Source of the DNA: Singulisphaera sp. GP187
GTDB lineage: Bacteria > Planctomycetota > Planctomycetia > Gemmatales > Gemmataceae
Direction: 5' to 3'
Length of the DNA stretch: 52,419 bases
Assembly (NCBI GenBank): GCA_945905925.1
Contig: CAMDQN010000032.1
Location: 1 to 52,419 of the forward strand
Under the pieces are notes generated by a model, which worked only from the letters and a program-made list of their open reading frames with translations, made no database searches and was not told the DNA's origin. Positions 17,201 to 44,599 of this stretch are shown piece by piece. Every line of letters begins with the position of its first letter. Position 1 is the first letter of the stretch. Both the position numbers and the translations under genes were made by a program.

Positions 17201-17266
17201 GAACCCCGCTTCTCGGCACATGCAGACACGAGCGATTCCGTCTGCCGGCTCCCGTCGCTGGGGTTC
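17201..17266. promoter_or_regulatory. Face-to-face promoter element A
   Basis: GAACCCC at 17201-17207, 16 bases, AGAC at 17224-17227, 12 bases, GTCT at 17240-17243, 16 bases, GGGGTTC at 17260-17266. On each strand this reads GAACCCC-N16-AGAC, like an ECF-type -35/-10 pair. It lies between the divergent DUF1501 gene (start 17138) and the cytochrome-type gene (start 17311). Predicted start sites for the two strands fall at about the same place in the 12-base centre. Confidence 0.7.
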
Positions 17267-17310
17267 AGAGAATAACGCCTCCCATTCCGCCGTCCGAGAT
17301 GCAACTCCCA

Positions 17311-19410
17311 ATGACCCGCTTCGCCTGGCTCCCGCTCCTGCTCGCCCCGGTTTTGTCGGCCGGTGAGGCGCCGAAGCCCGCGGCTCCCGCGGACCCGCAT
17401 CGGGACACGGTCAAACCGTTCCTCGCCGCGCACTGCGTGAAGTGCCACGGGCGGGACAAGCAGTCCGGTGGTGTGCGCCTCGACGATCTTTCGGCTGATC
17501 CCGCGAAGGATGCCGAGCGGTGGGCAGCCGTCGGCGAGCAGATCCGCGATGGCTTGATGCCCCCGGCGAAGGAGCCGCGCCCCGACGCCGCGAAGAGCCG
17601 CGCGGTGGTCGCGTGGGTGATCGAGAAGACCGGCGGCCGCGCCGCGAAGTTGCCCAACCAGGGGAACCTGATCCCGCACGAGTTGCTATTCGGCAAACCG
17701 GCGAGCGCGGCCAACGCACCGGGGCCGCGCGTCTGGCGGCTCAGCCCCGAGGGTTACATGGGGTTCGTTCAGGAGGTCGGGCGCGGGAAGATCGCCGGGT
17801 TGGTGCAGCCGTTCACGCTCGTCCCCGAACGCGGGATCAAAGACTTCGCCGGGCTGTACACCATCGACGAGCCGAGCGCCGAGATCCTGATCCGCAACGC
17901 CGAGGCTATTGTCGAGGTGCAGACCGCCCACGAGGTAAAAGACGGCAAGGTGCAAGGCAAGAACGGTTCGGTACGCGAGTTCCTCGCGCTCATGGATTCG
18001 AAGAGTGAGCCGACGCGGGCGCAGCTCGAAACCGCCGTGCAGACGCAATTCAAGATGGCTGTCGGCCGGGCCGCGACTGGGGACGAACTGAAGCGGTTCC
18101 TCGGCCTCTACGAGAAGTGCGCGAAGGCGGGCGACTGGCCGGGTGCCGCGCGAACGATGCTTCAAGCAGTGTTGCTGAAGACCGACGCCCTGTACCGCTC
18201 CGAACTCGGTCGCGGGAAAGCCGACGGCACCGGCCGGAAGATGCTCGCGCCGGAGGAACTCGCAGTCGCCATCAGCCTCGCGCTCGGCGACCGCCGCGAC
18301 CCCGACCTGATGACCGCGGTGGCCAAGAGTGAACTGACGACGAAGGAACAGATCGCGGCACACGTGCGCCGGTTGCTCGATTCGCAGCGCGAAAGCGACC
18401 GCGGTCGCGTCCTGCGGTTCTTCCGCGAGTACTTCGAGTACGGCAACGCAACCAACGTGTTCAAGGACAAGCCGAAGGAGTTCGTGCATCAGCCGGGGCA
18501 ACTGGTTTCCGACACCGACCGGCTTGTGCTTTACGTCCTCGCAGCCGACAAGGACGTGTTCCGCGAACTGCTTACCACCCCTAAATCGTTCGTCAACTAC
18601 ACCACCGCCAAGAACAAGCAGAAGGGCGGGATCGAGGAGCCGAAGCCGGGCGTCGTGCTCAACCCGATCAACAACAAGGGGCAGAAGGGCGTCGAGTCGG
18701 TTTACGGGATCGAGTCGTGGGTGCCGGAACAACCCGTCGGGATGCCCGAAGGCACGCGACTCGGCATCCTGATGCAGCCGAGCTGGCTCGTCGCGTGGAG
18801 CACGAACTTCGACAACGATCCGGTGCGACGCGGGCGCTGGGTCCGCGAGCGCCTGCTCGGCGGCACCGTCCCGGACTTGCCCATCGGGGTGGTCGCGCAG
18901 GTGCCCGACGACCCGCACCGCACCTTCCGCGACCGACTCACGGTCACCCGCGACGCGAAGTGCTGGAAGTGCCACCAGCGGATGGACGAACTCGGGCTGC
19001 CGTTCGAGCAGTTCGACCACTTCGGCCGCTTCCGCACCGCAGAGCCGGTCCTCGACGTGGAAGCCACCGCCAAGAACGTGGACCCCAAGTCGAAGAAGCC
19101 GCTCGGCCCCGTGTATCGTGACGCGCAACTGGTCGCGACGGGAACGATCGCCGACAGCGGCGACCCGAAGCTCGACGGCGCGGTGAAGGACCCGCGCGAG
19201 TTGGTCAAGAAGATCGCGAACTCGGACGTTGCCCGTCAGGTGTTCGTGCGCCACGCGTTCCGCTACTTCCTCGGCCGCAACGAAACCCTTTCCGACGCCA
19301 AGACCCTGCAGGACGCCGACCACGCATACCTCGAGAGTGGCGGCAGTTTCAAGACCCTCGTCGTGTCGCTGCTGACGAGCGATTCGTTCCTCTACCGCAG
19401 CGCGAAGTGA
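17311..19410 (+). CDS. Secreted planctomycete-cytochrome protein, DUF1592/1588/1585 type
   Basis: 699 residues. I chose ATG 17311 because the product then begins with a clean signal peptide (MTRFAWLPLLLAPVLSAGEA); ATG 17299, in the same frame, is also possible. CVKCHGRDKQSGGVRLDDL near residue 42 is the N-terminal haem motif of the family. The middle is a divergent DUF1592 region. RRGRWVRERLLGG followed by CWKCHQRMDELGLPFEQFD near residue 552 is DUF1588. FRYFLGRNE and the SLLTSDSF tail are DUF1585. A DUF1552 gene follows after 52 bases. Confidence 0.88.
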   Translation: MTRFAWLPLLLAPVLSAGEAPKPAAPADPHRDTVKPFLAAHCVKCHGRDKQSGGVRLDDLSADPAKDAERWAAVGEQIRDGLMPPAKEPRPDAAKSRAVVAWVIEKTGGRAAKLPNQGNLIPHELLFGKPASAANAPGPRVWRLSPEGYMGFVQEVGRGKIAGLVQPFTLVPERGIKDFAGLYTIDEPSAEILIRNAEAIVEVQTAHEVKDGKVQGKNGSVREFLALMDSKSEPTRAQLETAVQTQFKMAVGRAATGDELKRFLGLYEKCAKAGDWPGAARTMLQAVLLKTDALYRSELGRGKADGTGRKMLAPEELAVAISLALGDRRDPDLMTAVAKSELTTKEQIAAHVRRLLDSQRESDRGRVLRFFREYFEYGNATNVFKDKPKEFVHQPGQLVSDTDRLVLYVLAADKDVFRELLTTPKSFVNYTTAKNKQKGGIEEPKPGVVLNPINNKGQKGVESVYGIESWVPEQPVGMPEGTRLGILMQPSWLVAWSTNFDNDPVRRGRWVRERLLGGTVPDLPIGVVAQVPDDPHRTFRDRLTVTRDAKCWKCHQRMDELGLPFEQFDHFGRFRTAEPVLDVEATAKNVDPKSKKPLGPVYRDAQLVATGTIADSGDPKLDGAVKDPRELVKKIANSDVARQVFVRHAFRYFLGRNETLSDAKTLQDADHAYLESGGSFKTLVVSLLTSDSFLYRSAK

Positions 19411-19462
19411 AATTTCTGCCCCGCACCGTCGCCGAATGCGACGAACCTCAACGAGACCGCAA

Positions 19463-20842: not shown

Positions 20843-20843
20843 C

Positions 20844-21716
20844 TCACTTCGACGTCGCGGGGAGAACCTTCCCCGCGACGCGGACGGGGTCGAGGCTCGG
20901 CCTGTAGTTCTTCATGTCGTCGCCCTTCTTCGCGAGGTCACCAACGAATGGCCGCACCGGGATCTTGTCCTTCTCGGTCGGCTTCTTGTCGAGGAACGCG
21001 CCGTCCGTGAGCGAGACGTACACCGGGCGGCGATAGTTCACCACATCGGCGCCCAAGTCCTTCACCTTGTGGACCGCGTCGCTGTTCGGGCCGACGGTGA
21101 ACTCCAGCACGCTGTAATCGGGCGACACGCGGAAGTAGCGGTACCCGCAGCGCGGCGGTTCGCCGCCCTTCATCACGTCGGGATACTCGCTCAGCCAGTA
21201 CAGGTTCCCCTGCACCCAGTTCACGTACACCCACTCGTTCGGTTGGAGAATGTCGTTCATCGCGATGCGCTTCACGACCTCGCCGGTCTTCTTGTAGATG
21301 ACGATACGGTCCGCGAACCCCGCGTACTTCTTGAACTCGTCCGGCGGGTTCTGGTTGACTTCCTTTTCCTTCCCGCCCGGCGGCTTGCTGCCGGCCCCGG
21401 TCCAGTTCGCGGTCTGGAACACCGCGAACGTCTCGCCGCCGGGCGGCACGAAGATGTGCGCGTACGCGACCTTGAAGTGCTCGAGGCCATAGGGCAGCCC
21501 GACGAGCCAGCCCTTGTGCGTGGTGCCGGTCTTGCTGTCCTTCCAGGTGAACTCCCAGCCGTCCTTGCCGTCGGGTTGCTTCTTTGACTCTGCGGTGACG
21601 ACGTACCGCCCGTCGGCGGACTGGCAGCCGTCCACGTAGCCGGGGCGGGTGTGGCCCGCGAGTGCGGCACCGGAACAACTGAGTACCGCGAGCAAGGCGA
21701 ACAGTTGACGCTTCAT
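20844..21716 (-). CDS. Secreted protein, stand-alone version of the DUF1080 N-terminal module
   Basis: 290 residues from ATG at 21716, where a signal peptide begins (MKRQLFALLAVLSCSGAALA). The mature protein matches the first 255 residues of the DUF1080 protein at 5116: DGCQSADGRYVVTAE, FVPPGGETFAVF, MNDILQPNEWVYVNW, FRVSPDYSVLEF and LDPVRVAGKV occur in the same order. No catalytic motif is recognised. The high content of Trp, Tyr and beta-like segments suggests a propeller or beta-sandwich. It is the last gene of the 25.9-20.8 kb operon, 32 bases after the ThuA-like gene. Confidence 0.75.
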   Translation of the reverse strand: MKRQLFALLAVLSCSGAALAGHTRPGYVDGCQSADGRYVVTAESKKQPDGKDGWEFTWKDSKTGTTHKGWLVGLPYGLEHFKVAYAHIFVPPGGETFAVFQTANWTGAGSKPPGGKEKEVNQNPPDEFKKYAGFADRIVIYKKTGEVVKRIAMNDILQPNEWVYVNWVQGNLYWLSEYPDVMKGGEPPRCGYRYFRVSPDYSVLEFTVGPNSDAVHKVKDLGADVVNYRRPVYVSLTDGAFLDKKPTEKDKIPVRPFVGDLAKKGDDMKNYRPSLDPVRVAGKVLPATSK

Positions 21717-21748
21717 GGCTGACCCGTGGTGAAGTTGTCCGTGGCGAA

Positions 21749-22639: not shown

Positions 22640-22678
22640 CGTCCACCTGTGGTGTTCACACGAGAAACCGGTCCGAGG

Positions 22679-23974: not shown

Positions 23975-24003
23975 TGCGGAAGCTCCCTGAGTCGCAAGTG
24001 GGG

Positions 24004-25944
24004 TCAGTGGTTCAGCATGAATTCGCTGCTGTTGAGCAGCACCCACACGACGCGACAGTACGCGTCACGCGGGGATTTCTGTTTCTCAACGAACGTCACG
24101 AACTTCTGTCGCTCGTCGGCCGTGGGTTTACGTGACAGCACCGCGAGGAAGAGTTGCTCGACCGCGTCGGTCGGCGCCTTCGCGGACGCGAGTACGCGGT
24201 CCACGACCTTCCCGCTCGTGTTGTAGTAGCTCTCGTTCATCAGCTTCAGCGCGTGGGGCACGCCGAGCTTTAACTCGGTGGGCTCGTCGGCCTCGCCCGG
24301 CCCGCGGAACGCCGCGACGAACACCGCGCGCGGGGTGGGCGGCGGTGGCGCCTTCGGGTTCGGCTTCTTCTTCGGGTCGGGTGGCGGCGCGATCTCCGAC
24401 AGTTCCAGCGCGACGCACAGCGCGTCGTAGACCTGCTCCGGCGTCAGCACCTTCGGCGCCATGCGGGCGAAGAGGGTTTCCGCTTCCGCCTTCTCGTTGC
24501 CCGGCGCGACGCGGCTCGTCCGCTGATACGCTTCGGACAGGCAGACGCAACGGATCAGGTGCTTCACATCAAAGTTCGACGCGACGAACTCGTCCGCGAG
24601 CGCGTCGAGCAGCGCCGGGTGCGACGGCGTGTTGTGGTCGCCGAAGTCGTTCAGCGGGTTGACGAACCCGCGGCCGAAGAAGTGTGCCCAGAACCGGTTC
24701 GCGGTCGCGCGGGCGAACATCCGGTTGTCCTTGGCGGTCAGCCACTCCGCGAACGGCGGGCGGTGGCTTTTGGTCGGGTCCGCGACCAGCTTCGCCCCGT
24801 CGAGCAACCCCGCGGGCACCTTCTTGCCGCCGTTGCGGGCCTCGCCGTCGTTGGGGATGTTGATCGCGATTTCCTTCAGCGGCGCGGGCGGCTTCTTGCC
24901 CGGCTTCGGCTCCTCGATGTGCCGCTCCTTCACACCGGGCGTGTTCTTGTTTTCGACCGTCTCCATCCGCGCCGACTGACCGAAGAACGCGGCGACGCTC
25001 CAGAAGTCGGTTTGCTTCCACGCGCTGAACGGGTGGTCGTGGCACTCCGCACACTGGAGTTGCACGCCGAGGTACACCTGCCCGATGTTGCCCGCGAGGA
25101 TCTTCGGGGCGAACTGCGAGTTCATGTCGCCGTTGTAATAGAAGAACAGCCCCTGCGGCGCGTCGCTGAGCGGGCCGGTGGCGGTGAGGATGTCGCGGGT
25201 GATCGCGTCCCACCCGCGGCCCTCGTTGAGCGCCTTCGCGAACCACTCCTTGAACGGCTCCGGCGGCTTCGGTGTCTGGTTGACGGTGGTGAGGTAGAAC
25301 ACGTTCACCCACCGCTCGCCGAAGTGCCGCCCGTAGTCTTCCGAGGCGAGCAGTTCGTCGATGAGCTTCTCACGCTTGTTGGTACTCGTGTCGGCGAGGA
25401 ACGCGGCGGCCTTGTCCGTGGTCGGCGGCTTGCCCGCGATGTCGAGGGACGCACGGCGCAGGAACTCCGCGTCGTCCGCCTTCGGCGAGGCAGGCACTTT
25501 CGCGGCGGAAAGTTTGGCGTCAATCTCGCGGTCGATGAACTTCGCAACCTCGGAGGGCTTCTTCGCGGGCCGCGTGGCGACCGTTTCCGCCTTCTTCTCG
25601 GTGCCCTTCGCCCCGGCGGCGATCCAGTCGCGAATCAGCTTCTTGTTCGCGTCCGAAACCTTGTTGTCGGTCTTCGGCATCTCGTCCTTCGCGAGCTTCT
25701 TCCACAGCAGGCTCTCGTCCGGCTTACCGGGTACGACGACGGCTCCCGACTGCCCGCCCTTGAGGGCGGCCGGCAGGGTGCGGAGGTCGAGGCCGTTCTT
25801 CTGGTGAACGCCGCCGTGGCACTGGAGGCAATGCGCGTTCAAGACCGGCAGCACATCGCCCTCGAAGGTCGGCGTCTTCGGTTCGGCCGACGCGACCGCC
25901 GGCACGAGGGTCAGAATCAGGACGGCGAAGAGGCGACCGGGCAT
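24004..25944 (-). CDS. Secreted DUF1549/DUF1553 planctomycete-cytochrome protein
   Basis: 646 residues from ATG at 25944, where a signal peptide begins (MPGRLFAVLILTLVPAVASA); the open frame runs further upstream without protein character. CLQCHGGVHQKNGLDLR near residue 34 is the N-terminal haem motif (PSCyt1), and DEMPKTDNKVSDANKKLI follows. DUF1549 covers about 155-370 with FLRRASLDIAGKPPT and LQCAECHDHPFSAWKQ. DUF1553 covers about 430-625 with NRFWAHFFGRG and NDFGDHNTPSHPALLD. It is the first gene downstream of promoter element B on the minus strand. Confidence 0.9.
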   Translation of the reverse strand: MPGRLFAVLILTLVPAVASAEPKTPTFEGDVLPVLNAHCLQCHGGVHQKNGLDLRTLPAALKGGQSGAVVVPGKPDESLLWKKLAKDEMPKTDNKVSDANKKLIRDWIAAGAKGTEKKAETVATRPAKKPSEVAKFIDREIDAKLSAAKVPASPKADDAEFLRRASLDIAGKPPTTDKAAAFLADTSTNKREKLIDELLASEDYGRHFGERWVNVFYLTTVNQTPKPPEPFKEWFAKALNEGRGWDAITRDILTATGPLSDAPQGLFFYYNGDMNSQFAPKILAGNIGQVYLGVQLQCAECHDHPFSAWKQTDFWSVAAFFGQSARMETVENKNTPGVKERHIEEPKPGKKPPAPLKEIAINIPNDGEARNGGKKVPAGLLDGAKLVADPTKSHRPPFAEWLTAKDNRMFARATANRFWAHFFGRGFVNPLNDFGDHNTPSHPALLDALADEFVASNFDVKHLIRCVCLSEAYQRTSRVAPGNEKAEAETLFARMAPKVLTPEQVYDALCVALELSEIAPPPDPKKKPNPKAPPPPTPRAVFVAAFRGPGEADEPTELKLGVPHALKLMNESYYNTSGKVVDRVLASAKAPTDAVEQLFLAVLSRKPTADERQKFVTFVEKQKSPRDAYCRVVWVLLNSSEFMLNH

Positions 25945-25976: not shown

Positions 25977-26056
25977 GAACCCCGCAAGCCTTCTCACGCA
26001 GACGCGCAAGTCGGCACATCCGCGGAACTGTCTGCGCCCTCTTCCGGGCGGGGTTC
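25977..26056. promoter_or_regulatory. Face-to-face promoter element B
   Basis: GAACCCC at 25977-25983, 16 bases, AGAC at 26000-26003, 26 bases, GTCT at 26030-26033, 16 bases, GGGGTTC at 26050-26056. All four boxes are perfect matches to the element at 17.2 kb; the centre is longer. It lies between the DUF1549 gene (start 25944) and the DUF1501 gene (start 26133). Confidence 0.7.
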
Positions 26057-26132: not shown

Positions 26133-27449
26133 ATGATGCCCCGGACAGATTCAAACTCCGGTGTTTGCCGCCGGGAGGAACATGAGTTGTCTCGCCGGCT
26201 GTTCCTTCAAGGAGCGGTTGCGGGCGGTGCCGCGCTCGGCGGCTTCGGCCGGCTGTTCGCCGCCGACAACGCCGACAAGGTCGCGCGCCAGGCGAAGCAC
26301 GTCATTCTCGTGTTCATGTCCGGCGGGCCGAGTCAGTTCGAGACGTGGGACCCGAAAACCGGTCGCCCGACCGGCGGGCCGCACATGAACGCGCAGACCA
26401 CCGTTCCTGGCGTGCGGTTCGATGAGTACATGCCGAACCTCGCGCGGCTCGCGAACACGATGGCGGTGGTCCGCTCGATGACGAGCGACCTCGGCGATCA
26501 CATGGAGGCCCACTACCTCGCGCAGACCGGCCACAAGCCGACGAATGTGGTCGCCACCGCGCCGCACTGGTTGAGCGTGTGCGCCCGGCAGAAGCCCACC
26601 GGTAGCGACCTCCCGTCGTACGTCGTTCTCGGTGCGGAAGGCGGCGGCAACATGGCCGTGCCGGGACCGGGATTCCTCGGCGCCGGTTACCAGGGGCTGT
26701 ACTGCCCCGGTAAGGGGAAAGGGCCGGAAGACCTGCCCGCCAGCGAGAAAGACCTCGACGCGTTCCGCCGGCGCGACGCGCTCCGCAAGGCGATGAGCGG
26801 TCGGTTCGGAGACGGGCGAACCACGACCGGCACCGACAGCCACGACGCCGCGTTCGGCGCGGTGGACCGGCTCCTCCGGAACCGCGCACTCTTCGACATC
26901 TCGAAAGAACCGCCGAAGCGCGTCGAGCAGTACGGCCCGTCCGCGCTGGGGAAGGACTGCCTGCTCGCGGCGCGGCTGGTGGAACAGGGTGTGCCGTTCG
27001 TGCGCGTGCAGCACCAGAACGGACTGGCTTGGGACAAGCACCGCCGCGCGTTCGACAGCCAGCGACACATCACCCGCGAGTTCGACATCGCAACTGGCGC
27101 TCTCATCGACGACTTGAGGGATCGGGGCCTGTGGGACAAGACGCTCGTGGTGCTGATGGGCGAGTTCGGCCGCACGCCGGAAATCCTGGGTCAAGGGCCG
27201 CCGGGACGCAACCACTGGACCAAGAGCTGGTCGCTCTCCTTCGGCGGCTGCGGCGTGAAGCCGGGCGTCGTCGGCAGCACCAACGAAGACGGCACCGCGG
27301 TGAAGGAGCGCCCGGTGACCATCCCGGACCTGTTCGCGACGTTCTACACACTGCTCGGCATCGACCCGCGCACGGAACTCGAACACGAGGGCCGCCCCGT
27401 GCCGCTGACCGAAAACAGCAAGGGCACCCCGGTCAAGGAGGTGCTGTAA
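26133..27449 (+). CDS. Tat-type exported DUF1501 protein
   Basis: 438 residues from the first ATG of an ATGATG pair at 26133. The signal is unusual: about 20 polar residues precede LSRRLFLQGAVAGGAALGGF, so the twin arginine lies near residues 22-23. Blocks: FMSGGPSQFETWDPK near residue 58, RVQHQNGLAWDKHRR, GEFGRTPEILGQ and GRNHWTKSW, ending in EGRPVPL as in the protein at 22679. A strong ribosome-binding site for the WD40 gene lies in its last codons and the next gene starts two bases after its stop. Confidence 0.9.
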   Translation: MMPRTDSNSGVCRREEHELSRRLFLQGAVAGGAALGGFGRLFAADNADKVARQAKHVILVFMSGGPSQFETWDPKTGRPTGGPHMNAQTTVPGVRFDEYMPNLARLANTMAVVRSMTSDLGDHMEAHYLAQTGHKPTNVVATAPHWLSVCARQKPTGSDLPSYVVLGAEGGGNMAVPGPGFLGAGYQGLYCPGKGKGPEDLPASEKDLDAFRRRDALRKAMSGRFGDGRTTTGTDSHDAAFGAVDRLLRNRALFDISKEPPKRVEQYGPSALGKDCLLAARLVEQGVPFVRVQHQNGLAWDKHRRAFDSQRHITREFDIATGALIDDLRDRGLWDKTLVVLMGEFGRTPEILGQGPPGRNHWTKSWSLSFGGCGVKPGVVGSTNEDGTAVKERPVTIPDLFATFYTLLGIDPRTELEHEGRPVPLTENSKGTPVKEVL

Positions 27450-27450
27450 C

Positions 27451-30077: not shown

Positions 30078-31277
30078 TCACTCGGCAACGACAATCGTGT
30101 GCGGGCGCGAGGTCCTGCGCGAGTCCGCGGCGCTCGTCGTCACGATCAGCGAGTGGATGCCGGGCTTGAGCGTCACCTCGAACGCCCACGGCGCTTCGGT
30201 CTTTTCGGCCAGCCGCTCGTGGGCGTCCCACAACTCGACCTTCTGCGGCTTCAACTGGTCGCCGAGTTTGACCTTCACCGTCACCGGCTTCCCGGCCGAG
30301 TGGAGGACGAACGGCTGGCCGTCGCCCAGCCCCGGCGGCTCGGTGATGGTCACGTCCTTGCCCGTCCCCGCGCCGACGAACGCCTGCCACACGGCCGCGA
30401 CCCGCTGCGATGGGAACCAGCACGCCGCGTCGCGGTCGCCCTTGTAGTCCTTCCACGCGGCGACGGTGGGGATCTTCCCGTCCTTGTCCCAAGTGGACGT
30501 GTCGCCGAGCCAGCCGTCTTCGAGCGCGATCTCCGCCAGCGGCGTGGGTTTGTCCGCGGGCGGTTGTTTGGGCAGCCGGCGGGTGATCGCGTCGTCGAAG
30601 AACACGAACGACAGGTTGTTGGCGAGGGCGAACTCGTGCTTGCGGTTCCACTGGACCGCGATTCCGAAACGAGCGCCGAGTTTTCGTTCCGCCGGGAGCT
30701 TGTCGAGCAGCAGTTTCATCTGGGAGCCGTCCTTCTCGCCGAAGACCGTCATCACCGGGATGCGGCGGGTAGGTTCGGAGGCCGGCCCGACCTCCAGGCA
30801 CACTGGGGCGCTGGCGATGGTGCGTTCGGGCATGAGTTCGGCGAGTTGCATGCTCATCCCGCCGCCGCGCGACATTCCCGTGAAGCACAGCGGCAGGTGC
30901 TCCAGTTCGGGGTGTTTGGTCTGCTTCGCGAGGTCGGTTAAGCCGGTCTTGAGGAGCGCGAACTCCTCCTTTTTCACCGCGTCGAAGTCCACTTGCACGT
31001 AGGCGAACTGCCAGTGCCGGCACGCGGCCTGCCAGTGCTTGCTCACGTCGTCGCCCTTCGAGAACGGGTTGCAGATCCCACCGCGAACGGTCTTCACGCC
31101 GTCGGGAATCCAGACACTGACGAACACCTTGTCTCGCGCTCCGCCGAGGACGGGGTCGCGAGTGCGGGCGGTCTTCAGCGTGTACTCGACGCGCGCGGTA
31201 ACGCCCTTCGGCGGTTCGGCCCCCGCGACCGCACCGCCGAAGCCGAGGAGAAGCAACGCAAAGAGGACGCGACTCAT
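30078..31277 (-). CDS. Secreted alpha/beta-hydrolase-fold protein
   Basis: 399 residues with a signal peptide (MSRVLFALLLLGFGGAVAGA). A nucleophile elbow is visible as LCFTGMSRGGGMSMQL (G-x-S-R-G-G) near residue 155. VMTVFGEKDGSQ near 195 offers the acidic residue and NRKHEFALANN near 235 a possible catalytic His. The C-terminal 100 residues look like an added beta domain (VEVTLKPGIHSLIV-type strands). The fold suggests an esterase or peptidase acting on exported substrates; the substrate is unknown. It is a single gene behind the minus-strand half of promoter element E. Confidence 0.75.
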   Translation of the reverse strand: MSRVLFALLLLGFGGAVAGAEPPKGVTARVEYTLKTARTRDPVLGGARDKVFVSVWIPDGVKTVRGGICNPFSKGDDVSKHWQAACRHWQFAYVQVDFDAVKKEEFALLKTGLTDLAKQTKHPELEHLPLCFTGMSRGGGMSMQLAELMPERTIASAPVCLEVGPASEPTRRIPVMTVFGEKDGSQMKLLLDKLPAERKLGARFGIAVQWNRKHEFALANNLSFVFFDDAITRRLPKQPPADKPTPLAEIALEDGWLGDTSTWDKDGKIPTVAAWKDYKGDRDAACWFPSQRVAAVWQAFVGAGTGKDVTITEPPGLGDGQPFVLHSAGKPVTVKVKLGDQLKPQKVELWDAHERLAEKTEAPWAFEVTLKPGIHSLIVTTSAADSRRTSRPHTIVVAE

Positions 31278-31318
31278 AACTCGATTCCCAGGTGTTCAGC
31301 GAGCGGGGCCACGTTCAG

Positions 31319-31388
31319 AATCCCGCGCACGGCGAGAACCAGACGCGCGGTATCGAAGGTGTCTGCGGCAGGCGACCTGTGGGGTTTA
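31319..31388. promoter_or_regulatory. Face-to-face promoter element E
   Basis: GAATCCC at 31319-31325 (one mismatch), 16 bases, AGAC at 31342-31345, 16 bases, GTCT at 31362-31365, 16 bases, GGGGTTT at 31382-31388 (one mismatch). The spacers are exact although both outer boxes have drifted by one base. It lies between the hydrolase gene (start 31277) and the SMP-30-like gene (start 31423). Confidence 0.6.
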
Positions 31389-31422: not shown

Positions 31423-32379
31423 ATGCACACACGCCTTCTCGCGACGGTTTGTCTCCTCCCCGCCCTCGTCGTACCCGCGATTGGGGCCGACCCTGACACC
31501 GCGCCCGGCGGCGTGTACACCGCCGAGGAAGTCCCCGGCAGCCCGAAGCTGTCGGCCGCCGGGATGGTGTGGTGGAAGGACAAACTCGTCATCGCCGACC
31601 GCGGCGGGAAGCGGCTCGTTACCTTCACGGCGCCGGACAAGTTCGAGACGCTTCACGAGGTTCCGGTGCCAGTCGGCTTGGCCGTCGATCCGGATGGTAA
31701 CCTAATCCTGACCGAGAAGGATCCGGCGCGAATCGTCCGGATCAAGCCCGACGGAACCAGTACCGTTCTGGCCGACAAGGACGTGGGCACGCCGCACTTC
31801 GTCGCGGTCCACAAGTCCGGTCGCGTGTTCTGGTCCGGCTTCCCCGACGGCGGCACCCGCAGCGTCGTTCCCGGCGGCACGGTCTCCGTTTACACGCCGA
31901 AGATCGGCCACACCTACGGCGTCGGCCTCAGTCCGAAGCAGGACTGGTTGTACGTTGCGTCCAAACTGCCGGACGCGAAGAGCCGGGCGGTGTGGCGGTT
32001 CCCGCTGGACGCGGACGGCAAGCCGGGCGAGGGCGCGGTGTTCTTCAAGGTTCAAGATCTGAAGCCGGATCTGCCCAAGCTCCCCGTCGCGAAAGACGGC
32101 GTTGAGAATCTGCTCGGGTGGGTCGGCCGGCTTCAGGGGCTGACGGTGGACAAGCTCGGTTACATCTACATCGCGGGCGCCGAGTCGCACACGTCGGGCG
32201 AGGCGGTCGCGGTGATCTCGCCCGACGGGAAGAAGGTGGTGGCGATGATTCTGGGCGTCCCGCGAAACATCTCCGGACTGGCGTTCGGCGGGAAAGACGG
32301 GCGGACGTTGTTCATCACCGGAGCGGGCGAATACCGACTTCACCAAGTTCGGCTGCCGGTCGCGGGCGCCGGGCGGTGA
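31423..32379 (+). CDS. Secreted SMP-30/gluconolactonase-like propeller protein
   Basis: 318 residues with a signal peptide (MHTRLLATVCLLPALVVPAIG). Propeller strands recur as in SMP-30/gluconolactonase and NHL proteins: KLVIADRGGKRLVTF, GLAVDPDGNLILTEKD, HFVAVHKSGRVFWSG, YGVGLSPKQDWLYVAS, GLTVDKLGYIYIAG and LAFGGKDGRTLFITG. The metal ligands of true gluconolactonases cannot be assigned with certainty, so it may be a binding protein. It is a single gene behind the plus-strand half of promoter element E, convergent with the DUF1501 gene at 32411. Confidence 0.8.
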   Translation: MHTRLLATVCLLPALVVPAIGADPDTAPGGVYTAEEVPGSPKLSAAGMVWWKDKLVIADRGGKRLVTFTAPDKFETLHEVPVPVGLAVDPDGNLILTEKDPARIVRIKPDGTSTVLADKDVGTPHFVAVHKSGRVFWSGFPDGGTRSVVPGGTVSVYTPKIGHTYGVGLSPKQDWLYVASKLPDAKSRAVWRFPLDADGKPGEGAVFFKVQDLKPDLPKLPVAKDGVENLLGWVGRLQGLTVDKLGYIYIAGAESHTSGEAVAVISPDGKKVVAMILGVPRNISGLAFGGKDGRTLFITGAGEYRLHQVRLPVAGAGR

Positions 32380-33932: not shown

Positions 33933-36209
33933 TTAGTGGTTGAACAGGAACTCTTTGGTGTTCAGCAGTGCCCAGAGGATGTCGGCGTAGGCGGCGCGGT
34001 CGTCGCCCTTCTTCTCGATGTGGCCGACGAGGATCGCGAGTTCGTCCTTCATTGGCTCGCGCGACAGCGCCACGAGGTACAGGTCGCGGAGTTTCTCCGC
34101 GTGCGGGCGCTTGTCCGCGAGGAGCTTCGTCAGCCGCTCGCCCGGCGCCGCCTTCGGCCCGGCGTTCGGGTTCGGCTTCGCCTTCGGGTCGGTCTTCGGC
34201 GCCGGAGGCGGGGCGCCGATCTTCGCGAGCAGTTCCTCCGAGTTCATCAGGAGGAGCGCTTGCGCGAGGTTGGCGTCGGAGTTGCGTTCGCACTCGCACG
34301 CGCTCGCCCCGTCCGGGCGGCCGAACACGCTGAGGAAGTACGAATCGGACTGGTTGTCCGGCAGTTGCACGGCCCGCGTGCCGGCCGGGACGCCGCGGAA
34401 CGGCGTCTTCGCGAGCGCGACCGCGTCGATGGCATCGAGCAGTACCTCGGCGTTCAGGCGTCGCGGGTAGAACCGGGCGAAGTGCTGCTTGTCGTTCGCG
34501 TTGTGGTCGTTCGGTGTGCTGCTGAGGCGATACACGTTCGACGTGCAGATCAAGCGAATGAGTTTCTTCGTGTCGTACTTGTCCGCGACGAACCGCTTCG
34601 CGAGCGCGTCGAGGAGTTCGGGGTTGCTCGCGGGGTTCGTTGCGCTCATGTCGTCTTCGGGATCGACAAGCCCGCGACTGAAGAAGTGTTTCCAGTAGCG
34701 GTTCACGAGCGTGCGCGCGAAGTACGGGTTGTCGGTCGCGGTGACCCACTCCGCGAGCTTCTCGCGTGGGTCGGCATCGTCCGAAAGCGCGAACGGCTTG
34801 CCGTCGAGACCGGCGGGGAAGAGTTTCGCGTTGGTGCGCGGGTGCGGCATCGTCGCGGTGCCGCTCTTGAGCGCGACCGTGAGCGGCTGACCCGGCGTGT
34901 CGGGGATGTTCTTCTTCGGATCGCCCTTCTTGAGCGCTGTCGCGAGTTGAACGTCGGTGCGCGCGAACGCCGCGGCGAGGCTCCAGTAATCGCCCTGCGT
35001 CCAGCGGTCATGCGGGTGGTGGTGACACTTCGCGCACGCGACCCGCTGGCCGAGGAACAGTTGGGCCACGTCTTCAGCGAGGTTCGCGGAATCCTTAAGT
35101 TCGCGATACCACACCGCCCGCGGGTTGTCGTCCACGGGACCGGTCGCGGTGAGCAACTCTCGCACGAACGCGTCGAACGGCTTGTTGTCCTTGAGGCCGT
35201 CGCGAATCCACGCGTGGAACGCGACGTTCGGCTTCGCGTCCTCGTTCGGCGCGTTGCGCCGGTTGCGGAGCAGCGCCGACCACTTGTTCGCGAAGTAGTC
35301 CGCGTAGTCGGGCGAAGCGAGCAACCGGTCGATGAGCTTCTCGTACTTGTCGGCCCCGTTCTCTTTCGCGAACGCTTCCGCTTCTTCCTTCGTGGGGAGC
35401 CGGCCGCAAATGTCGATGGTCGCGCGGCGGAGGAACGTCGCGTCGTCGCACAACTCCGACGGCGGCAACCCGAGTTCCTTCAGTTGCTTGAAGACGAGTT
35501 CGTCGGCGACGGTCTTGGCGGGCGGCAGTTTGGTGACCGGGGTTCCGAACGGAATCGTAATTCGCGCGACGGCGACGGCGTCCATGTAGCGCGCGGTGAG
35601 GGTGGCCGAACCGGATTGCTGCTTCGCGCTGACGGCGCCGTTGGCGTCCACGGCGAGCAGATCCGCGGGGCCGGCTTCCAGCACCGCGAGCCGGGTCACG
35701 TCGCGCTTCGAGCCGTCGCGAAAGTGCGCGACGACCGACGCCTGCAATTTTTCGCCGCGTTGAAGAAGTTTGCTTCCGGGCTGAACCTCGATGCGTTCAA
35801 GGCTCGGCGCGTTCGCGGGCGACGACCGCGCGCCTTCGACGACCCACCGCTTCAGCAGTTCGTACGCGTCGGATTGGGTGTCGAGCCGCTTCCCGCCGCC
35901 GTGGGGAACGGAACCGGTCGCCTTGAGCAACAGGAGGCTCTGCGCCGGGGCCGCGGCGAACACCCGCCGGCCGCGGGCTTCCTTCGCGATGTACTCGTAG
36001 TCGTCTTGCGGCTCGAAGCCGAACAGCGACAGTTTGAACCCGTTCTGCCCTTCGGCCTTGCCGTGACACCCGCCGGTGTTGCACCCGAGTTTCGTGAGTG
36101 TGGGCACAACTTCGGTCGTGAAACTGACGCCCGCCGGTTCCGCGGCGACGGAATCCGGCGCGAACAGCGCAAGCGCGAAGAGAGTGGAAAGGACCGAGCG
36201 CGAGGACAT
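33933..36209 (-). CDS. Secreted DUF1549/DUF1553 protein with Ig-like (BIG2) insert
   Basis: 758 residues with a signal peptide (VLSTLFALALFAPDSVAA). The N-terminal cysteine motif is GCNTGGCHG near residue 45, with four rather than two residues between cysteines (C-x4-CH), as in the subgroup that carries a bacterial Ig-like domain. That domain follows at about 135-235 (IEVQPGSKLLQRGEKLQ; SGSATLTARYMD). DUF1549 is at about 250-450 (FLRRATIDICGRLPTKEEA; CAKCHHHPHDRW) and DUF1553 at about 510-740 (NRYWKHFFSRGLVDPEDD). It is the first gene behind the minus half of promoter element C. Confidence 0.9.
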   Translation of the reverse strand: MSSRSVLSTLFALALFAPDSVAAEPAGVSFTTEVVPTLTKLGCNTGGCHGKAEGQNGFKLSLFGFEPQDDYEYIAKEARGRRVFAAAPAQSLLLLKATGSVPHGGGKRLDTQSDAYELLKRWVVEGARSSPANAPSLERIEVQPGSKLLQRGEKLQASVVAHFRDGSKRDVTRLAVLEAGPADLLAVDANGAVSAKQQSGSATLTARYMDAVAVARITIPFGTPVTKLPPAKTVADELVFKQLKELGLPPSELCDDATFLRRATIDICGRLPTKEEAEAFAKENGADKYEKLIDRLLASPDYADYFANKWSALLRNRRNAPNEDAKPNVAFHAWIRDGLKDNKPFDAFVRELLTATGPVDDNPRAVWYRELKDSANLAEDVAQLFLGQRVACAKCHHHPHDRWTQGDYWSLAAAFARTDVQLATALKKGDPKKNIPDTPGQPLTVALKSGTATMPHPRTNAKLFPAGLDGKPFALSDDADPREKLAEWVTATDNPYFARTLVNRYWKHFFSRGLVDPEDDMSATNPASNPELLDALAKRFVADKYDTKKLIRLICTSNVYRLSSTPNDHNANDKQHFARFYPRRLNAEVLLDAIDAVALAKTPFRGVPAGTRAVQLPDNQSDSYFLSVFGRPDGASACECERNSDANLAQALLLMNSEELLAKIGAPPPAPKTDPKAKPNPNAGPKAAPGERLTKLLADKRPHAEKLRDLYLVALSREPMKDELAILVGHIEKKGDDRAAYADILWALLNTKEFLFNH

Positions 36210-36276: not shown

Positions 36277-36352
36277 GAACCCCACCTGCGCGGGGGCCAG
36301 ACACACCTTACCGCGGGGGCTGTGTGTCTGCACGAATCATTCGGCGGGGTTC
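36277..36352. promoter_or_regulatory. Face-to-face promoter element C
   Basis: GAACCCC at 36277-36283, 15 bases, AGAC at 36299-36302, 23 bases, GTCT at 36326-36329, 16 bases, GGGGTTC at 36346-36352. Around the inner boxes the symmetry extends to AGACACAC and GTGTGTCT. It lies between the DUF1549 gene (start 36209) and the DUF1501 gene (start 36379). It has the only 15-base spacer among the ten half-sites. Confidence 0.7.
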
Positions 36353-36378
36353 GGGAAAGTAACTTAACGGACCACTCC

Positions 36379-37878
36379 ATGTTTGACCTCGTCACCGGCT
36401 CTCGCTCCCGGCTCTGCGACGGAACTTCGCGGCGCGATTTCCTCCGCGCCGGGCTGTTCGGCCTCGGCGGGCTTGCCGTCGGCAGCAACCTGCGCGCCGC
36501 CGATCCAACTGCGGCGCCCGGCTCGTTCGTCCGCGACAAGTCGGTCGTCTTCCTGTTCCTCGCGGGCGGACCGAGCCAGTACGAGACGTTTGACCCCAAG
36601 CCGGACGGCCCGGAAGGTTCGACCAGCATCAACGGCCACGTCCCGACCGCGATCCCCGGCGTGCGGTTCTCCGCGTACCTGCCCAAACTCGCGAAGATGG
36701 CCGACCGTCTCACCGTGGTGCGGTCGTTCAAGACGAAGCACCCGGAACACAACGGCGCCCACAAGCAACTGATGACCGCCGACCTGACGGTGCAGGACGG
36801 CAAGCCGATCACCGAGCCGGGCCTCGGCGCGGTGTACGCCCGCGCCGCCGGGGCGATCAACCCAACCACCGGTCTGCCGCGTCACGCGCTGATCCCACCG
36901 ACCACGCGGAACAAGACCGGCCGCGCCGGGTTCAACGGGTCGTTCGAGTCGGTGGTGGAGGGCTGCCAGCCGGCGGGGTTGGGAAACGCGTACTCGCCCT
37001 TCGAGCTGCTCGCGCCGCTCTCCGACGGACCGATTGAAGAAGGCAAGAAGCGGAAGGGCGAAGAGCCAAACCCGTTCCTCGATTTGCTGAACCCGCGGCT
37101 CGAATCCGCCGACGTGAACGACCGACTCGGTCTTCTGAAGCAGCTCGACCGGCTCGACCGCCGCGCCGATGCCGCCGGCGCAATGGGCCGACTCGATGAG
37201 TTCACCCTCCAGGCGGCGGAGGTGCTGCGGAGCGGGAAGGTGCGCGAGGCGCTCGACCTGTCGCGCGAGAAGCCCGCGACGATCAAAGCCTACGACACCG
37301 AACACTTCCCGAACTGGAACTGCGACGACAACTCGAAGTTCGTCCGCACCGGTCCGTCGGTCGGGTTTTCGCTCGGGCGCCAGTTGCTCCTCGCGCGGCG
37401 GCTGTGCGAAGCGGGCGCGGGGTTCGTCACTGTGGTGAACGCGAACTGGGACTTCCACGCGCGCAAGGGCATTCCGAACATGCCGGAAGGCATGGGCGTG
37501 TTCGCGCCGCCCCTCGACCACGCGGTCTGTGCGTTCCTCGAAGACATCAAGCAGCGCGGCCTCGAAGACAAGATTCTGCTCGTCATCACGGGCGAGTTCG
37601 GCCGCTCGGGGCTGGACAAGAACCTCGGCCGCCATCACCACGCGAAGATCTGCCCGCTGGTGTTCGCGGGCGGCGGGTTGAAGCACGGTCAGGTGGTCGG
37701 TCAGTCCGACCGGCGCGGCGCCGAACCCGCGACGGAAGCACTCACCATCGCCGACCTGCACGCCACGACCCTTCACACGCTGTGCGACGTCGGTCGGATG
37801 CGCGCCGACGTGAGTGTGCCGGCCCGGGTCATCGACCGTGCCACGAAGGGCACGCCGATCAAGGAGCTGTTCTCGTGA
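36379..37878 (+). CDS. Tat-exported DUF1501 protein heading a four-gene operon
   Basis: 499 residues from ATG at 36379; the frame is open further upstream but the signal (SRRDFLRAGLFGLGGLAVGS, arginines at 18-19) fits only this start. Blocks: FLAGGPSQYETFDPKPDGPE near residue 60, VNANWDFHARKG, GEFGRSGLDKNLGRHHH and an AGGGLKHGQVVGQSD loop, ending PIKELFS. The metal-like loop has GRHHH where others have GGRDH. Its stop overlaps the GTG of the WD40 gene (GTGA), the first of three such overlaps in this operon. Confidence 0.9.
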   Translation: MFDLVTGSRSRLCDGTSRRDFLRAGLFGLGGLAVGSNLRAADPTAAPGSFVRDKSVVFLFLAGGPSQYETFDPKPDGPEGSTSINGHVPTAIPGVRFSAYLPKLAKMADRLTVVRSFKTKHPEHNGAHKQLMTADLTVQDGKPITEPGLGAVYARAAGAINPTTGLPRHALIPPTTRNKTGRAGFNGSFESVVEGCQPAGLGNAYSPFELLAPLSDGPIEEGKKRKGEEPNPFLDLLNPRLESADVNDRLGLLKQLDRLDRRADAAGAMGRLDEFTLQAAEVLRSGKVREALDLSREKPATIKAYDTEHFPNWNCDDNSKFVRTGPSVGFSLGRQLLLARRLCEAGAGFVTVVNANWDFHARKGIPNMPEGMGVFAPPLDHAVCAFLEDIKQRGLEDKILLVITGEFGRSGLDKNLGRHHHAKICPLVFAGGGLKHGQVVGQSDRRGAEPATEALTIADLHATTLHTLCDVGRMRADVSVPARVIDRATKGTPIKELFS

Positions 37879-41326: not shown

Positions 41327-42651
41327 ACCGGAAGACGTACTGGATCACCCGCCGCGCGCTGCTCCGCGGGTTCGGCGCGACGATGGCGCTGCCGTACCTC
41401 GAAATCATGGGCGGGCAGACGCTCGCCGCGGAAGCCAGCGCGAAGGAGCCGCGGCGCCTCGCGTGCTTCTACATCCCCGGCGCCATCGGGCGCTCGACGT
41501 GGTTCCCGACCGACACCGGGAAGGGCTACACCATCTCCCCGGCTCACAAGCCGCTCGAGAAGATGCGCGACGAGTTCACGGTGCTGACGAACCTGTCGCA
41601 CATCACCGGGCGCATCAGCGGTCACGTCCACCCGTACAACTGGCTGACCGGCCACAACATCAACATCAACCCGGGCACGATCACCAACACCGTGTCGATG
41701 GATCAGGTGGCCGCGAAGCACCTCGGACCGACGTGGGTGCCGTCGCTGGCACTGTCGTTCGCCGACGGCGTCGGAACCGCGACGCTCTCCCGCAACGCGC
41801 TGGGCGTGGACGTGGCGGCGACCGCGAACTACCGCACCGTGTTCGAGCGGCTGTTCCCGCCCGCGGACAAGGATCAACTGAAGGACGCGCACGCCCGCCT
41901 CGCGCTCAACAAGAGCGTGCTCGACACCGCCGGCGCGGGCGTGAAGGATGTCCAGAAGCACCTCGGCGCCGACGACAAGAAGCGGCTCGACCAGTACCTC
42001 GATTCGATCCGCGAGGTGGAGAAGCGCCTGGACGACAGCGAACTCATCCTCGACCGCGGGCGGCCGAAGTTCGACGAGGAGGCCGTGAAGACCGTGCCAC
42101 AGGGCAAGAACGGAATGCGCGAGCACATCGAGATGATGATGGACCTGATCGCGCTCGCGTTCCAGACCGACATGACCCGCGTGGTGACGCACAGTTTGGG
42201 CGGCGAGGGCGGGCCGAACTACGACGAGTACAAGGACTGGGCACAGAAGGCCGGCGCCCCGGTGCGCGGCGCGCACGACGTCCACCACAAGGCGCAGGGC
42301 GCCGCGGACTCGCCGGAGGCGCAGGTGATCTTCGCCCGCGACCTGATGCTGGTCGAGTGCCTCGCGCGCCTGATGACCAAGCTGAAGGGGGTCCGCGCCG
42401 CGGACGGCAACCTGCTCGACCACACCGTCGTCCTGTTCGGCGGGGCGCAGATCTCGAGCCACTCGGGCAAGAGCTTCCCGACGCTCCTCGCGGGCGGGCG
42501 CAAGCTCGGGTTCAAGCACGGCCGGCACGTCAAGTACGAGGGCGACAAGGTGCCGATGTCGAACCTGTACCTGACCATCCTCCAGCAACTCGGCTGCCCG
42601 GTGAAGGCGTTCAAGGAGAGCAGCGGCCCGATCTCGGAGGTGTTGGCCTGA
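41323..42651 (+). CDS. Tat-exported DUF1552 protein
   Basis: 442 residues from ATG at 41323, overlapping the upstream stop. The signal is TRRALLRGFGATMALPYLE (arginines at 10-11). Family blocks: ACFYIPGAIGRSTWFP near residue 45, GHVHPYNWLTGHN near 102, LDQYLDSIREVEKRL near 220, FQTDMTRVVTHSLGGEG near 280 and VVLFGGAQISSHSGKSFP near 365. It ends the DUF1501-WD40-cytochrome-DUF1552 operon. The 85 bases to the convergent gene at 42737 are GC-rich, with TGACCCGC and GCGGGTCA inverted copies at the two stop codons, which may serve as a shared two-way terminator. Confidence 0.9.
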   Translation: MNRKTYWITRRALLRGFGATMALPYLEIMGGQTLAAEASAKEPRRLACFYIPGAIGRSTWFPTDTGKGYTISPAHKPLEKMRDEFTVLTNLSHITGRISGHVHPYNWLTGHNININPGTITNTVSMDQVAAKHLGPTWVPSLALSFADGVGTATLSRNALGVDVAATANYRTVFERLFPPADKDQLKDAHARLALNKSVLDTAGAGVKDVQKHLGADDKKRLDQYLDSIREVEKRLDDSELILDRGRPKFDEEAVKTVPQGKNGMREHIEMMMDLIALAFQTDMTRVVTHSLGGEGGPNYDEYKDWAQKAGAPVRGAHDVHHKAQGAADSPEAQVIFARDLMLVECLARLMTKLKGVRAADGNLLDHTVVLFGGAQISSHSGKSFPTLLAGGRKLGFKHGRHVKYEGDKVPMSNLYLTILQQLGCPVKAFKESSGPISEVLA

Positions 42652-42736
42652 CCCGCGGACGGGATCGCCGGGAGAGCCCTACTGGCGGGCCACGTCCCGA
42701 AGCCCGGCCGCGGCGGGCGCAGACCGGGACGGCGGG

Positions 42737-44485
42737 TCACTTCGCGAACACGATCTTCTTGCCGTCGAAGGTGACCGTCTGCCCGCCGACGGTGAGCTTG
42801 TCGCCGTCGGCCTTCACCTCGGGGTGCTTGTCCTTCGACAGCGTCATTACCGTGAAGGTCTGCCCGCCGGCGGTGACCTTCGTGAACTGGGCGGCCGCGT
42901 CGGACTTGCCCTCGCCGATGCCGACGCCCACGAGCAGCAGCGGCGCGCCGGAGGCGGCGGAGAAGTCCACCGCCAGGTGCCTCTCGCCCGTCGCGATCAC
43001 GCCGGAGCCGTCCTTCCCGGGCGCGAACTCGGCCGGTTTCGGCGAGGTGAAGTTGCCGAACTCGTACCGCTTGCCGAGGCCCCACACCACCACCGGCCCG
43101 AACTTCGGCTTGTACCCGTTCTTCGGCCCGTACCCGAGCAGGGCGGTGACGACGATGTCGTCCGCGTCCTTCCACCGGTTGCGGAAGCAGTAGTACCCGT
43201 GGACGCGGTCCTCGATCGCCTGCGGCAGAACGCCCGCGGGGTTCTTGGCTTCGACCCCGATCGGCCAGTTCGTGAAAGCCACGACCGCCTTCCACGGTGA
43301 GGTGAGCGCGTCGTAACTCTTCTCGCCCTTCGCAAGCCACCCCTTCTCGTTGATCCAGGCTTCCTTCGTGATGAGCTTGTGCTCGGCGGGCTCGACGAAG
43401 TTCTGATACACCCACAGGAACGCGGGCTTGTAGCGGTCCTCGATGACCCCGAACCCCTGCGCGAACTGCCCGCCGTGCGACCAGTCGCCGCCGCGGTAGA
43501 ACTCGTGCGTGCCGTAGCTCGGCCCGCCGTTGGTTATCCGGTTCGGGAACTGGGGGCGGCCGTCCTGCGGGACGATCTCCATCGCCCACCGGAGTGCGAT
43601 GAACTGGGCGTTGGGCCGGGGGGTGACGAAGTCCTTCCCGCACGCGACCCGAGCCGCCTGGAGCCAGAGCTGGAACCCGGTGTCGGACGAGACGTGGCTC
43701 GGCCCCTGGCTCTCGGCGTACCAGCCGTGGTCACCGAACCCCCTGGTGAGCATGGCGTGGGCGTTCGTGTAGGCGTCGGGCAGCCACTCTTCCCAGATCT
43801 TCACCCCCTCGGTGCCAGGGTCGCCGGCCAGGGCGGCGGCCGCCACCGCCCCGCAGATGATCCCGCCGGTGTGGTTCTTCTCCGGCCCGTACTTGGGCTT
43901 GCGGACCACCTTCTCCAGGTTGAACCCCTGGGAGTCCTTGACGTCGAGGAACGCCTTCGCGACCCGCTTCCGGTCGGCCTCGGCCCAGCCGTCGTAGCAC
44001 AGGTCGTACCCCAGACCCGCGACCGCCCACGACGACCCCGCCCGCAGTTCGCCGTTCGGGTCGGTGAACGAGTAGCGGCCGTCGCGGTCGGCCTCGCCCT
44101 TGATCATGCGGTCGAAGCACTGGAGCCCGAGGTCGGCGTACTTCTTCTCGCCGGTGAGCTGGTACAGAAGGCCGTACCCGGCGGCGTGGCCGATCGTGAA
44201 GGCACCGACGGTGTGCTCCGGCTGGCCCGGCGGCAGGAGCGTGTCGCCGTTCTTGCCGTCGAGCAGGAACCGCAGGCGTTTGACGACGGCCTTCCCCTCG
44301 GGCGTCTCGGCCCGCTTCTTGACGTCGGGCACGTCGCCCTTGCGGAAGAGGAGCCGCGGGTGCTCGCCCGGCTCGGGCTTCTTCCACTCCTTCAGGTCGG
44401 CGGGCCACGGCCCGTCAGCGGCGGGAGCAACGGCCGGGCAGGTTAGGCAAATGGCCGCGAGGCCGAGTCGGAAGAGGTGCGTCAT
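42737..44485 (-). CDS. Secreted polysaccharide-lyase-like (alginate/heparinase fold) protein
   Basis: 582 residues from ATG at 44485, followed by a signal peptide (MTHLFRLGLAAICLTCPAVA). HPRLLFRKGDVPDVKKRAETPEGK near residue 38 is the N-terminal signature of heparinase II/III and alginate-lyase-like proteins with an alpha/alpha toroid. Further helical-toroid blocks follow (HAAGYGLLYQLTGEKKYAD; SSWAVAGLGYDLCYDGW; NHTGGIICGAVAAAAL), and the C-terminal part (about 400-580) looks like the beta-sheet domain. Catalytic residues cannot be assigned safely. It is a single gene behind the minus half of promoter element D, back to back with the ECF sigma gene. Confidence 0.75.
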   Translation of the reverse strand: MTHLFRLGLAAICLTCPAVAPAADGPWPADLKEWKKPEPGEHPRLLFRKGDVPDVKKRAETPEGKAVVKRLRFLLDGKNGDTLLPPGQPEHTVGAFTIGHAAGYGLLYQLTGEKKYADLGLQCFDRMIKGEADRDGRYSFTDPNGELRAGSSWAVAGLGYDLCYDGWAEADRKRVAKAFLDVKDSQGFNLEKVVRKPKYGPEKNHTGGIICGAVAAAALAGDPGTEGVKIWEEWLPDAYTNAHAMLTRGFGDHGWYAESQGPSHVSSDTGFQLWLQAARVACGKDFVTPRPNAQFIALRWAMEIVPQDGRPQFPNRITNGGPSYGTHEFYRGGDWSHGGQFAQGFGVIEDRYKPAFLWVYQNFVEPAEHKLITKEAWINEKGWLAKGEKSYDALTSPWKAVVAFTNWPIGVEAKNPAGVLPQAIEDRVHGYYCFRNRWKDADDIVVTALLGYGPKNGYKPKFGPVVVWGLGKRYEFGNFTSPKPAEFAPGKDGSGVIATGERHLAVDFSAASGAPLLLVGVGIGEGKSDAAAQFTKVTAGGQTFTVMTLSKDKHPEVKADGDKLTVGGQTVTFDGKKIVFAK

Positions 44486-44533
44486 GTGGTGCAGGGAGGG
44501 TGAGTTTGGTGAGTTTGGAGGAGGTCTACAACC

Positions 44534-44599
44534 GAACCCCGCTCTCGGGCTGCGGCAGACAGCGGCATACCCGTCTGCGCGAGTCGGTTGGTGGAGTTC
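44534..44599. promoter_or_regulatory. Face-to-face promoter element D, ahead of the ECF sigma gene
   Basis: GAACCCC at 44534-44540, 16 bases, AGAC at 44557-44560, 12 bases, GTCT at 44573-44576, 16 bases, GGAGTTC at 44593-44599 (one mismatch). It has the same geometry as element A. On the plus strand it would give a leader of about 180 bases before the sigma gene at 44750; on the minus strand about 80 bases before the lyase-like gene. Confidence 0.7.

Follow-up and report, generated by a model that had tools for sequence, protein, structure and literature searches.

Five divergent gaps with one symmetric element

The window (the whole stretch of DNA that was analysed, 52,419 nucleotides) has exactly five divergent gaps by our own gene calls, and the same element lies in all five, as an earlier note on this DNA had claimed. 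The flanking genes mostly belong to the DUF1501, DUF1552, PSCyt1-3 and PSD1-5 families, with beta-propeller and unassigned genes beside them, and the fifth element sits between a flanking gene and the operon of an ECF sigma factor. The features are given below as read from the sequence, each half being written outward from the centre of its element; promoters and targets are predictions throughout, and distances run to the called gene start.

17201..17228, minus strand: element 1, left half, TGTCTG-N15-GGGGTTC; target the DUF1501 gene 15732-17138 (minus), start 62 nt away
17239..17266, plus strand: element 1, right half, CGTCTG-N15-GGGGTTC; target the PSCyt1/PSD/PSCyt3 gene 17299-19410 (plus), start 32 nt away
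25977..26004, minus strand: element 2, left half, CGTCTG-N15-GGGGTTC; target the PSCyt1/PSCyt2/PSD1 gene 24004-25944 (minus), start 32 nt away
26029..26056, plus strand: element 2, right half, TGTCTG-N15-GGGGTTC; target the DUF1501 gene 26187-27449 (plus), called TTG start 130 nt away, which may be too late
31318..31345, minus strand: element 3, left half, CGTCTG-N15-GGGATTC; target 30078-31277 (minus), without a Pfam family, start 40 nt away
31360..31387, plus strand: element 3, right half, TGTCTG-N15-GGGGTTT; target the SGL beta-propeller gene 31423-32379 (plus), start 35 nt away
36277..36303, minus strand: element 4, left half, TGTCTG-N14-GGGGTTC, the sole half with the shorter spacer; target the PSCyt2/PSD1 gene 33933-36209 (minus), start 67 nt away
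36325..36352, plus strand: element 4, right half, TGTCTG-N15-GGGGTTC; target the DUF1501 gene 36379-37878 (plus), start 26 nt away
44534..44561, minus strand: element 5, left half, TGTCTG-N15-GGGGTTC; target 42737-44485 (minus), without a Pfam family, start 48 nt away
44572..44599, plus strand: element 5, right half, CGTCTG-N15-GGAGTTC; predicted distal promoter of the ECF gene, ECF start 150 nt away
44716..44743, plus strand: predicted proximal promoter of the ECF gene, TGTCTG-N15-GGTATTC; ATG 6 nt away
44750..45331, plus strand: ECF sigma factor, 193 aa (Pfam and TIGR02989 matches), proposed reader of the promoters
45328..47229, plus strand: putative anti-sigma factor with a short N-terminal region, a likely membrane helix (by eye), a FecR domain and WD40 repeats

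The elements lie where they had been placed before, save that the third spans 31318-31387, one base before the position first given. On the opposite strand the halves read GAACCCC-N16-AGAC (equivalently GAACCCC-N15-CAGAC) in nine of ten cases, with N15 in one half (36277), exactly as the earlier spacer rule of 16 in nine of ten halves and 15 in one had it; the outer box is one mismatch off in three halves, reading GAATCCC (31318), AAACCCC (31361-31387) and GAACTCC (44573-44599). A relaxed outward pattern, [TC]GTC[TC]G-N14/15-GG[AGT][AG]TT[CT], matched the window 11 times, each time outside called genes, as against a mean of 0.2 and a maximum of 2 matches in 60 Markov shuffles of the window; the eleventh match, 44716-44743, was absent from the earlier note. 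The stricter unit GTCTG-N14/15-GGGRTTC occurs 15 times in the whole genome (6.47 Mb in 251 contigs) and its reversed control not once; the element is far more frequent than chance would give. Eight of these 15 matches fall inside the window; among the seven beyond it, four point outward at the called start of a gene (C110 twice, C76 and C16), two lie in called coding DNA (C79 and C84) and one lies close to a contig end (C243).

The spacer sequences are unlike from element to element and the boxes are more conserved than the spacers; the earlier reading of a promoter-like regulatory element is supported. The accompanying claim that the spacers are not conserved holds between elements and gives way in part between genomes: elements 1 and 3 have counterparts in the relative G014 whose boxes are kept, whose spacers are kept in part and whose flanks have partly drifted. 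Around element 5 the alignment with the G014 counterpart on C460, where the left neighbour is another one, is poor except near the proximal site.

An ECF sigma factor gene behind copies of the motif

The earlier note had suspected an ECF sigma factor from the boxes, and this suspicion is strengthened by an ECF gene it did not mention, located downstream of element 5. The product of this gene matched Sigma70_r2 (43.8 bits), Sigma70_r4_2 (35.9 bits) and Sigma70_ECF (23.5 bits), each above its Pfam cut-off, and the NCBIfam model TIGR02989 (Sig-70_gvs1) with 133.6 bits against a cut-off of 124.55. Relatives of the protein, whose loci were anchored by tblastn, were identified in 21 of 95 family genomes at an E-value of 1e-25 or better; these comprised 17 of the 19 genomes of the genus (all but G013 and G020), G087, G088 and G092, and the more distant G029.

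These searches gave 26 ECF loci, one of which (L152) is cut by a contig end and was left out, leaving 25 readable upstream regions. The outward unit was present upstream of the ECF gene in 24 of the 25, the locus without a match being that of a 37%-identical relative, and an inward match was found in two; in 300 Markov shuffles of the same regions the outward unit turned up in 0.04 of 25 on average. In 19 of the 24 units the box ends 6–14 nt ahead of a plausible start codon, and in the other five it ends 22–132 nt ahead; most of these ECF-upstream sites have no mirror partner listed. The proximal site stands 6 nt before the ATG in the window and in the relatives closest to it by identity, so a leaderless or nearly leaderless mRNA is predicted. 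The -10 box of this site reads GGTATTC in G000, at two G014 loci and at one G017 locus, and GGGGTTC in G021. The motif of the other predicted target operons stands before the ECF gene as well and is conserved there in its orthologues, as autoregulation would have it. An additional contig scan returned five ECF loci, of which four were apparently already counted and one (L195) was a weak 25% match, and it constitutes no independent test.

The gene that follows, 45328-47229, overlaps the ECF gene by 4 bases. Its protein carries WD40 repeats and, when residues 1-371 were searched alone, a match to PF04773 FecR (25.7 bits against a cut-off of 24), and a putative membrane helix was read by eye between the N-terminus and the FecR domain; the first 71 residues had no Pfam match at an E-value of 1. 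A FecR domain and an apparent membrane helix encoded next to an ECF gene are the features of a FecR-type anti-sigma factor, and this gene order is the layout of an ECF factor with its anti-sigma factor; we therefore regard the protein as a putative anti-sigma factor.

Direction of reading

A mirror pair between divergent genes is silent on the direction in which its halves are read, and for this reason orientation was judged from sites in tandem gaps. The half-site was searched in the 95 family genomes and the stretches around matches, mostly in the genus, were fetched; wider-pattern matches from nine genomes were added, genes were called and duplicates by sequence were dropped, which left 94 unique sites (43 in divergent gaps, 33 in co-directional gaps, 13 in called coding DNA and 5 at contig ends). 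The loci were taken because they carry the exact site, whichever way it points, so that the sampling does not favour one orientation; the set is, however, enriched for regulon clusters and partly orthologous. In 32 of the 33 tandem-gap sites the unit is outward, with GTCTG first and GGGRTTC nearer the downstream start (binomial p 8e-9, though orthologous sites are not independent), and 31 distinct protein starts lie downstream of these 32; the motif thus points to the operons it precedes, as in a regulon. The sole inward site (L105) is in G020, a genome without an ECF match. For the 71 sites that have a co-directional gene no more than 200 nt away, the called start lies at a median distance of 40 nt.

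When these 71 sites (35 with N14 and 36 with N15) were aligned on their boxes, a further signature appeared outside GGGRTTC. The second base after this box is G in 74% and 83% of the aligned sites, and T-rich bases come next; at base 9 after the box N14 sites have A or G in 89%, and N15 sites have a purine in 81% at base 8 and in 72% at base 9. Inward of the boxes, conservation is limited to the base preceding GTCTG (T or C), all other positions being at 0.33 bits or less. This conservation outside GGGRTTC is what an outward-reading promoter would predict. In addition, with N15 the distance from TGTC to GTT is 24 nt, equal to that from TGTC to GTC in the published ECF41 promoter TGTCACA-n16-CGTC (PMC3426412).

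The orientation of the tandem sites and the outward unit before 24 of 25 ECF loci together place the promoters back to back, and with the conserved bases past GGGRTTC and the ECF41-like distance they argue for two ECF promoters in each element. With a start 8–9 nt outside each GGGRTTC box, the predicted starts of the five pairs would be ~80–100 bp apart.

Occurrence of half-sites and ECF relatives

Strict half-sites numbered 66 in the 21 ECF-bearing genomes as against 23 in the 74 that lack an ECF match (Mann-Whitney p 1e-10), and at least one was present in 20 of the 21 and in 20 of the 74, respectively; the reversed-pattern control gave 11 matches over all 95 genomes. Part of this background is coding: three of the 13 coding-DNA sites (L116, L123 and L126) encode a VTGGAGF-like nucleotide-binding motif. 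Another of the 13, in L118, is a predicted ECF promoter hidden by a start called too early. In G009 and G010 the only strict matches are VTGGAGF-like coding sequence and the ECF promoters have the GGGATTC form, while in G016 the ECF gene is present with zero strict GAACCCC matches, its ECF promoter reading GGGATTG. Four genomes (G011, G012, G018 and G026) have only one or two strict half-sites, and in each of them one lies directly before the ECF gene. There were also exceptions, G034 having a whole pair without a detected ECF, and G015 having one pair (L089), a single case, in which the halves face each other under the outward reading.

Interpretation and alternatives

From the boxes, their orientation and conservation and their co-occurrence with ECF genes, all observed directly, we infer promoter activity, and our reading, to which we give a probability of roughly 0.88, is that each element consists of two ECF promoters of the ordinary kind, set back to back and most likely read by the ECF factor of 44750-45331. 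Other ECF paralogues could also read these sites. On each strand the outward unit would have TGTCTG as its -35 box, a spacer of 14–15 nt and GGGRTTC (core GTT) as its -10 box, with transcription beginning ~8–9 nt past the -10 box and the transcript leaving the centre into the flanking operon. Element 5 and the proximal site 44716-44743 would serve the ECF factor for its own operon, and the surrounding DUF1501/PSCyt/PSD operons would be driven by it as well. The FecR/WD40 protein, probably membrane-anchored, would hold the ECF factor inactive until a signal arrives; once released by that signal, the factor would bind TGTCTG/GGGRTTC, raise its own expression and transcribe the neighbouring operons.

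The earlier note had read the elements the other way round, with GAACCCC as the -35 box and AGAC as the -10 box of two ECF promoters that face each other, start at nearly the same point and oblige each polymerase to cross the partner's site. It is true that GAAC resembles the classical ECF -35 element AAC (PMC8103513), and that a symmetric pair has a gene to serve in each direction. However, only one of the 33 tandem-gap sites is inward to its gene and the other 32 point the opposite way, the ECF upstream regions have the unit outward in 24 of 25 against inward in 2 of 25, and the extra conserved signature stands on the outer side of the boxes; outward starts at the distance given above would require no crossing at all. 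We rejected facing promoters on the orientation of the tandem-gap and ECF-proximal sites and hold them to be very improbable. Hardly more probable is a symmetric operator, bound by a transcription factor that acts as a dimer or tetramer, depends on the two halves together and either represses or activates the genes on both sides: the four boxes are indeed mirror-symmetric in all five window gaps, but the centre varies from 8 to 35 bp without a fixed phase, 16 divergent gaps have sites on one strand only, and lone units stand before single genes. The lone units and the varying centre length are what disfavour such an operator.

A non-sigma regulator might instead bind TGTCTG-N14/15-GGGRTTC as a half-site operator beside an unrelated promoter, and what our evidence covers, the orientation and conservation of sites, would suit this too. 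The ECF promoter spacing, the conserved purine at the expected start and the ECF co-occurrence nevertheless speak for a promoter, as does a box just 6–14 nt ahead of 19 ECF starts, and we rate the half-site operator as improbable as the symmetric one. Least probable of all, and barely to be entertained, is a mobile or repeated DNA element with terminal inverted repeats; in its favour are the inverted repeats and the presence of integrase and transposase genes at the window's right end, but the spacers vary from copy to copy, the 11 sites of the window all lie outside called genes, and G014 retains orthologues of elements 1 and 3.

Pairing of the predicted promoters

If the elements are back-to-back promoters, their -35 hexamers (TGTCTG) are separated by 10–24 bp in the window pairs and by 8–35 bp in the clear pairs overall. 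In this set, divergent gaps with sites on both strands (14) and on one strand only (16) are of similar frequency; the pattern used to list pairs misses weaker halves, leaving L088 and L102 off its list, and it joins element 5 to the proximal site and not to its own right half. With 10–24 bp between the hexamers there may be too little room for two holoenzymes at once. The coupling or mutual exclusion of paired operons proposed in the earlier note may occur, though it would arise from crowding at the -35 boxes and not from collision. A bolder picture, in which one ECF factor and its membrane FecR/WD40 partner switch a ~44 kb block (3648-47229) and each pair fires its operons alternately, we think rather unlikely; if true, competition would be built into each of the regulon's divergent gaps.

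Relation to known systems

The ECF41 factors have a fused regulatory domain (PMC3426412). The promoters predicted here share with that of ECF41 a -35 box that starts with TGTC, a -10 box with GTC or GTT, an equal distance between them and a site upstream of the targets; they differ in reading TGTCTG in place of TGTCACA at -35 and GGGRTTC at -10, and the regulatory domain fused in ECF41 has here a separate FecR/WD40 partner in its place. With 193 aa and matches to sigma2 and sigma4 only, the factor of the window is set apart from ECF41 by its domains as well as by the -35 box.

Autoregulation and pairing with an anti-sigma factor are standard among ECF factors, whose classical boxes are AAC and CGT according to the review PMC8103513. 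The locus resembles such autoregulated operons in its small sigma2-sigma4 protein, overlapping partner gene and predicted promoter of the regulon's own motif, and departs from them in having TGTC and GTT in place of AAC and CGT and a partner with WD40 repeats. Another precedent comes from Rhodopirellula baltica, for which ECF control of a PSD1/PSCyt2 gene was suggested (RB10049 and RB10051; Studholme et al., cited in PMC2754498); there too an ECF gene was proposed to regulate a gene for a DUF1553 and DUF1549 protein. The citing passage concerns one gene and contains no motif, whereas here there is a predicted promoter motif, with many operons in several genomes. TIGR02989 (Sig-70_gvs1), a Rhodopirellula/Verrucomicrobium family whose cut-off the ECF factor passes, is a protein model only and is mute on promoters. 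Our literature search, which was incomplete and proves no absence, found neither a description of this motif or regulon nor a target promoter for TIGR02989 sigma factors. What is new is apparently the regulon, an ECF factor that seems to be autoregulated and to drive DUF1501/PSCyt operons, the type of switch itself being ordinary.

Predicted target operons and implications

After three proteins under 80 aa were dropped from the 71 downstream of the sites, with identical proteins excluded, 68 remained, and these included matches to PSCyt1 (19), PSCyt2 (18), PSD1 (16), DUF1501 (12) and Sigma70_r2 (6). With 15 sites in a genome that counts at least 58 DUF1501 matches, the regulon looks small. With this motif, one branch of the TIGR02989 sigma factors gains a candidate target promoter. 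These genomes contain large families of DUF1501, PSCyt and PSD proteins, which Pfam labels as of unknown function; a predicted promoter, together with candidates for the sigma factor and the membrane sensor, would define a small co-regulated subset of them and may offer a direct route to the signal that induces it.

The ECF sigma factor gene and its neighbours in the window were annotated with these additional features:
44716-44743: putative second ECF promoter, with the -10 form GGTATTC, ending 6 nt before the ATG
47604-52224: integrase-core ORF and DDE transposase, at the right end of the window

For the gene opposite the ECF (42737-44485) no Pfam family was found, and its match to the heparin lyase HepB, at 22 bits against a cut-off of 600, was far below the threshold. 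At the right end, the integrase ORF (48225-49568) had an additional match, in the same frame, to the CHC2 (DnaG) zinc finger, which represents either an odd fusion or read-through.

Under the outward reading, the sole pair that we found whose promoters would face each other was at L089:6333-6429, on contig C11 of family genome G015. Pattern matches such as GTCTGGTGACCGGCGGGGCGGGGTTC in loci L116, L123 and L126 were codons of an LVTGGAGF-like nucleotide-binding motif; such codons in coding DNA are a recurrent false positive for the promoter pattern. A full promoter pair was identified on a single contig (C307, L083) of G034, a member of another genus whose genome is 7% contaminated, and the spacer of one site on this contig is identical to one in G019 (L082, contig C240). 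The ECF search of the family genomes detected no match in G034, and the pair-bearing contig may derive from either transfer or contamination.

Because the second ECF promoter lies only 6 nt before the ATG, its position suggests a leaderless ECF mRNA. Its GGTATTC form is also present in G014 and G017. Among same-family ECF paralogues within one genome (L128, L148 and L151 in G014; L133 and L149 in G017) the -10 variants differ (GGTATTC, GGGCTTC and GGGCTTT), and diverging specificity of these paralogues may lie behind the differences.
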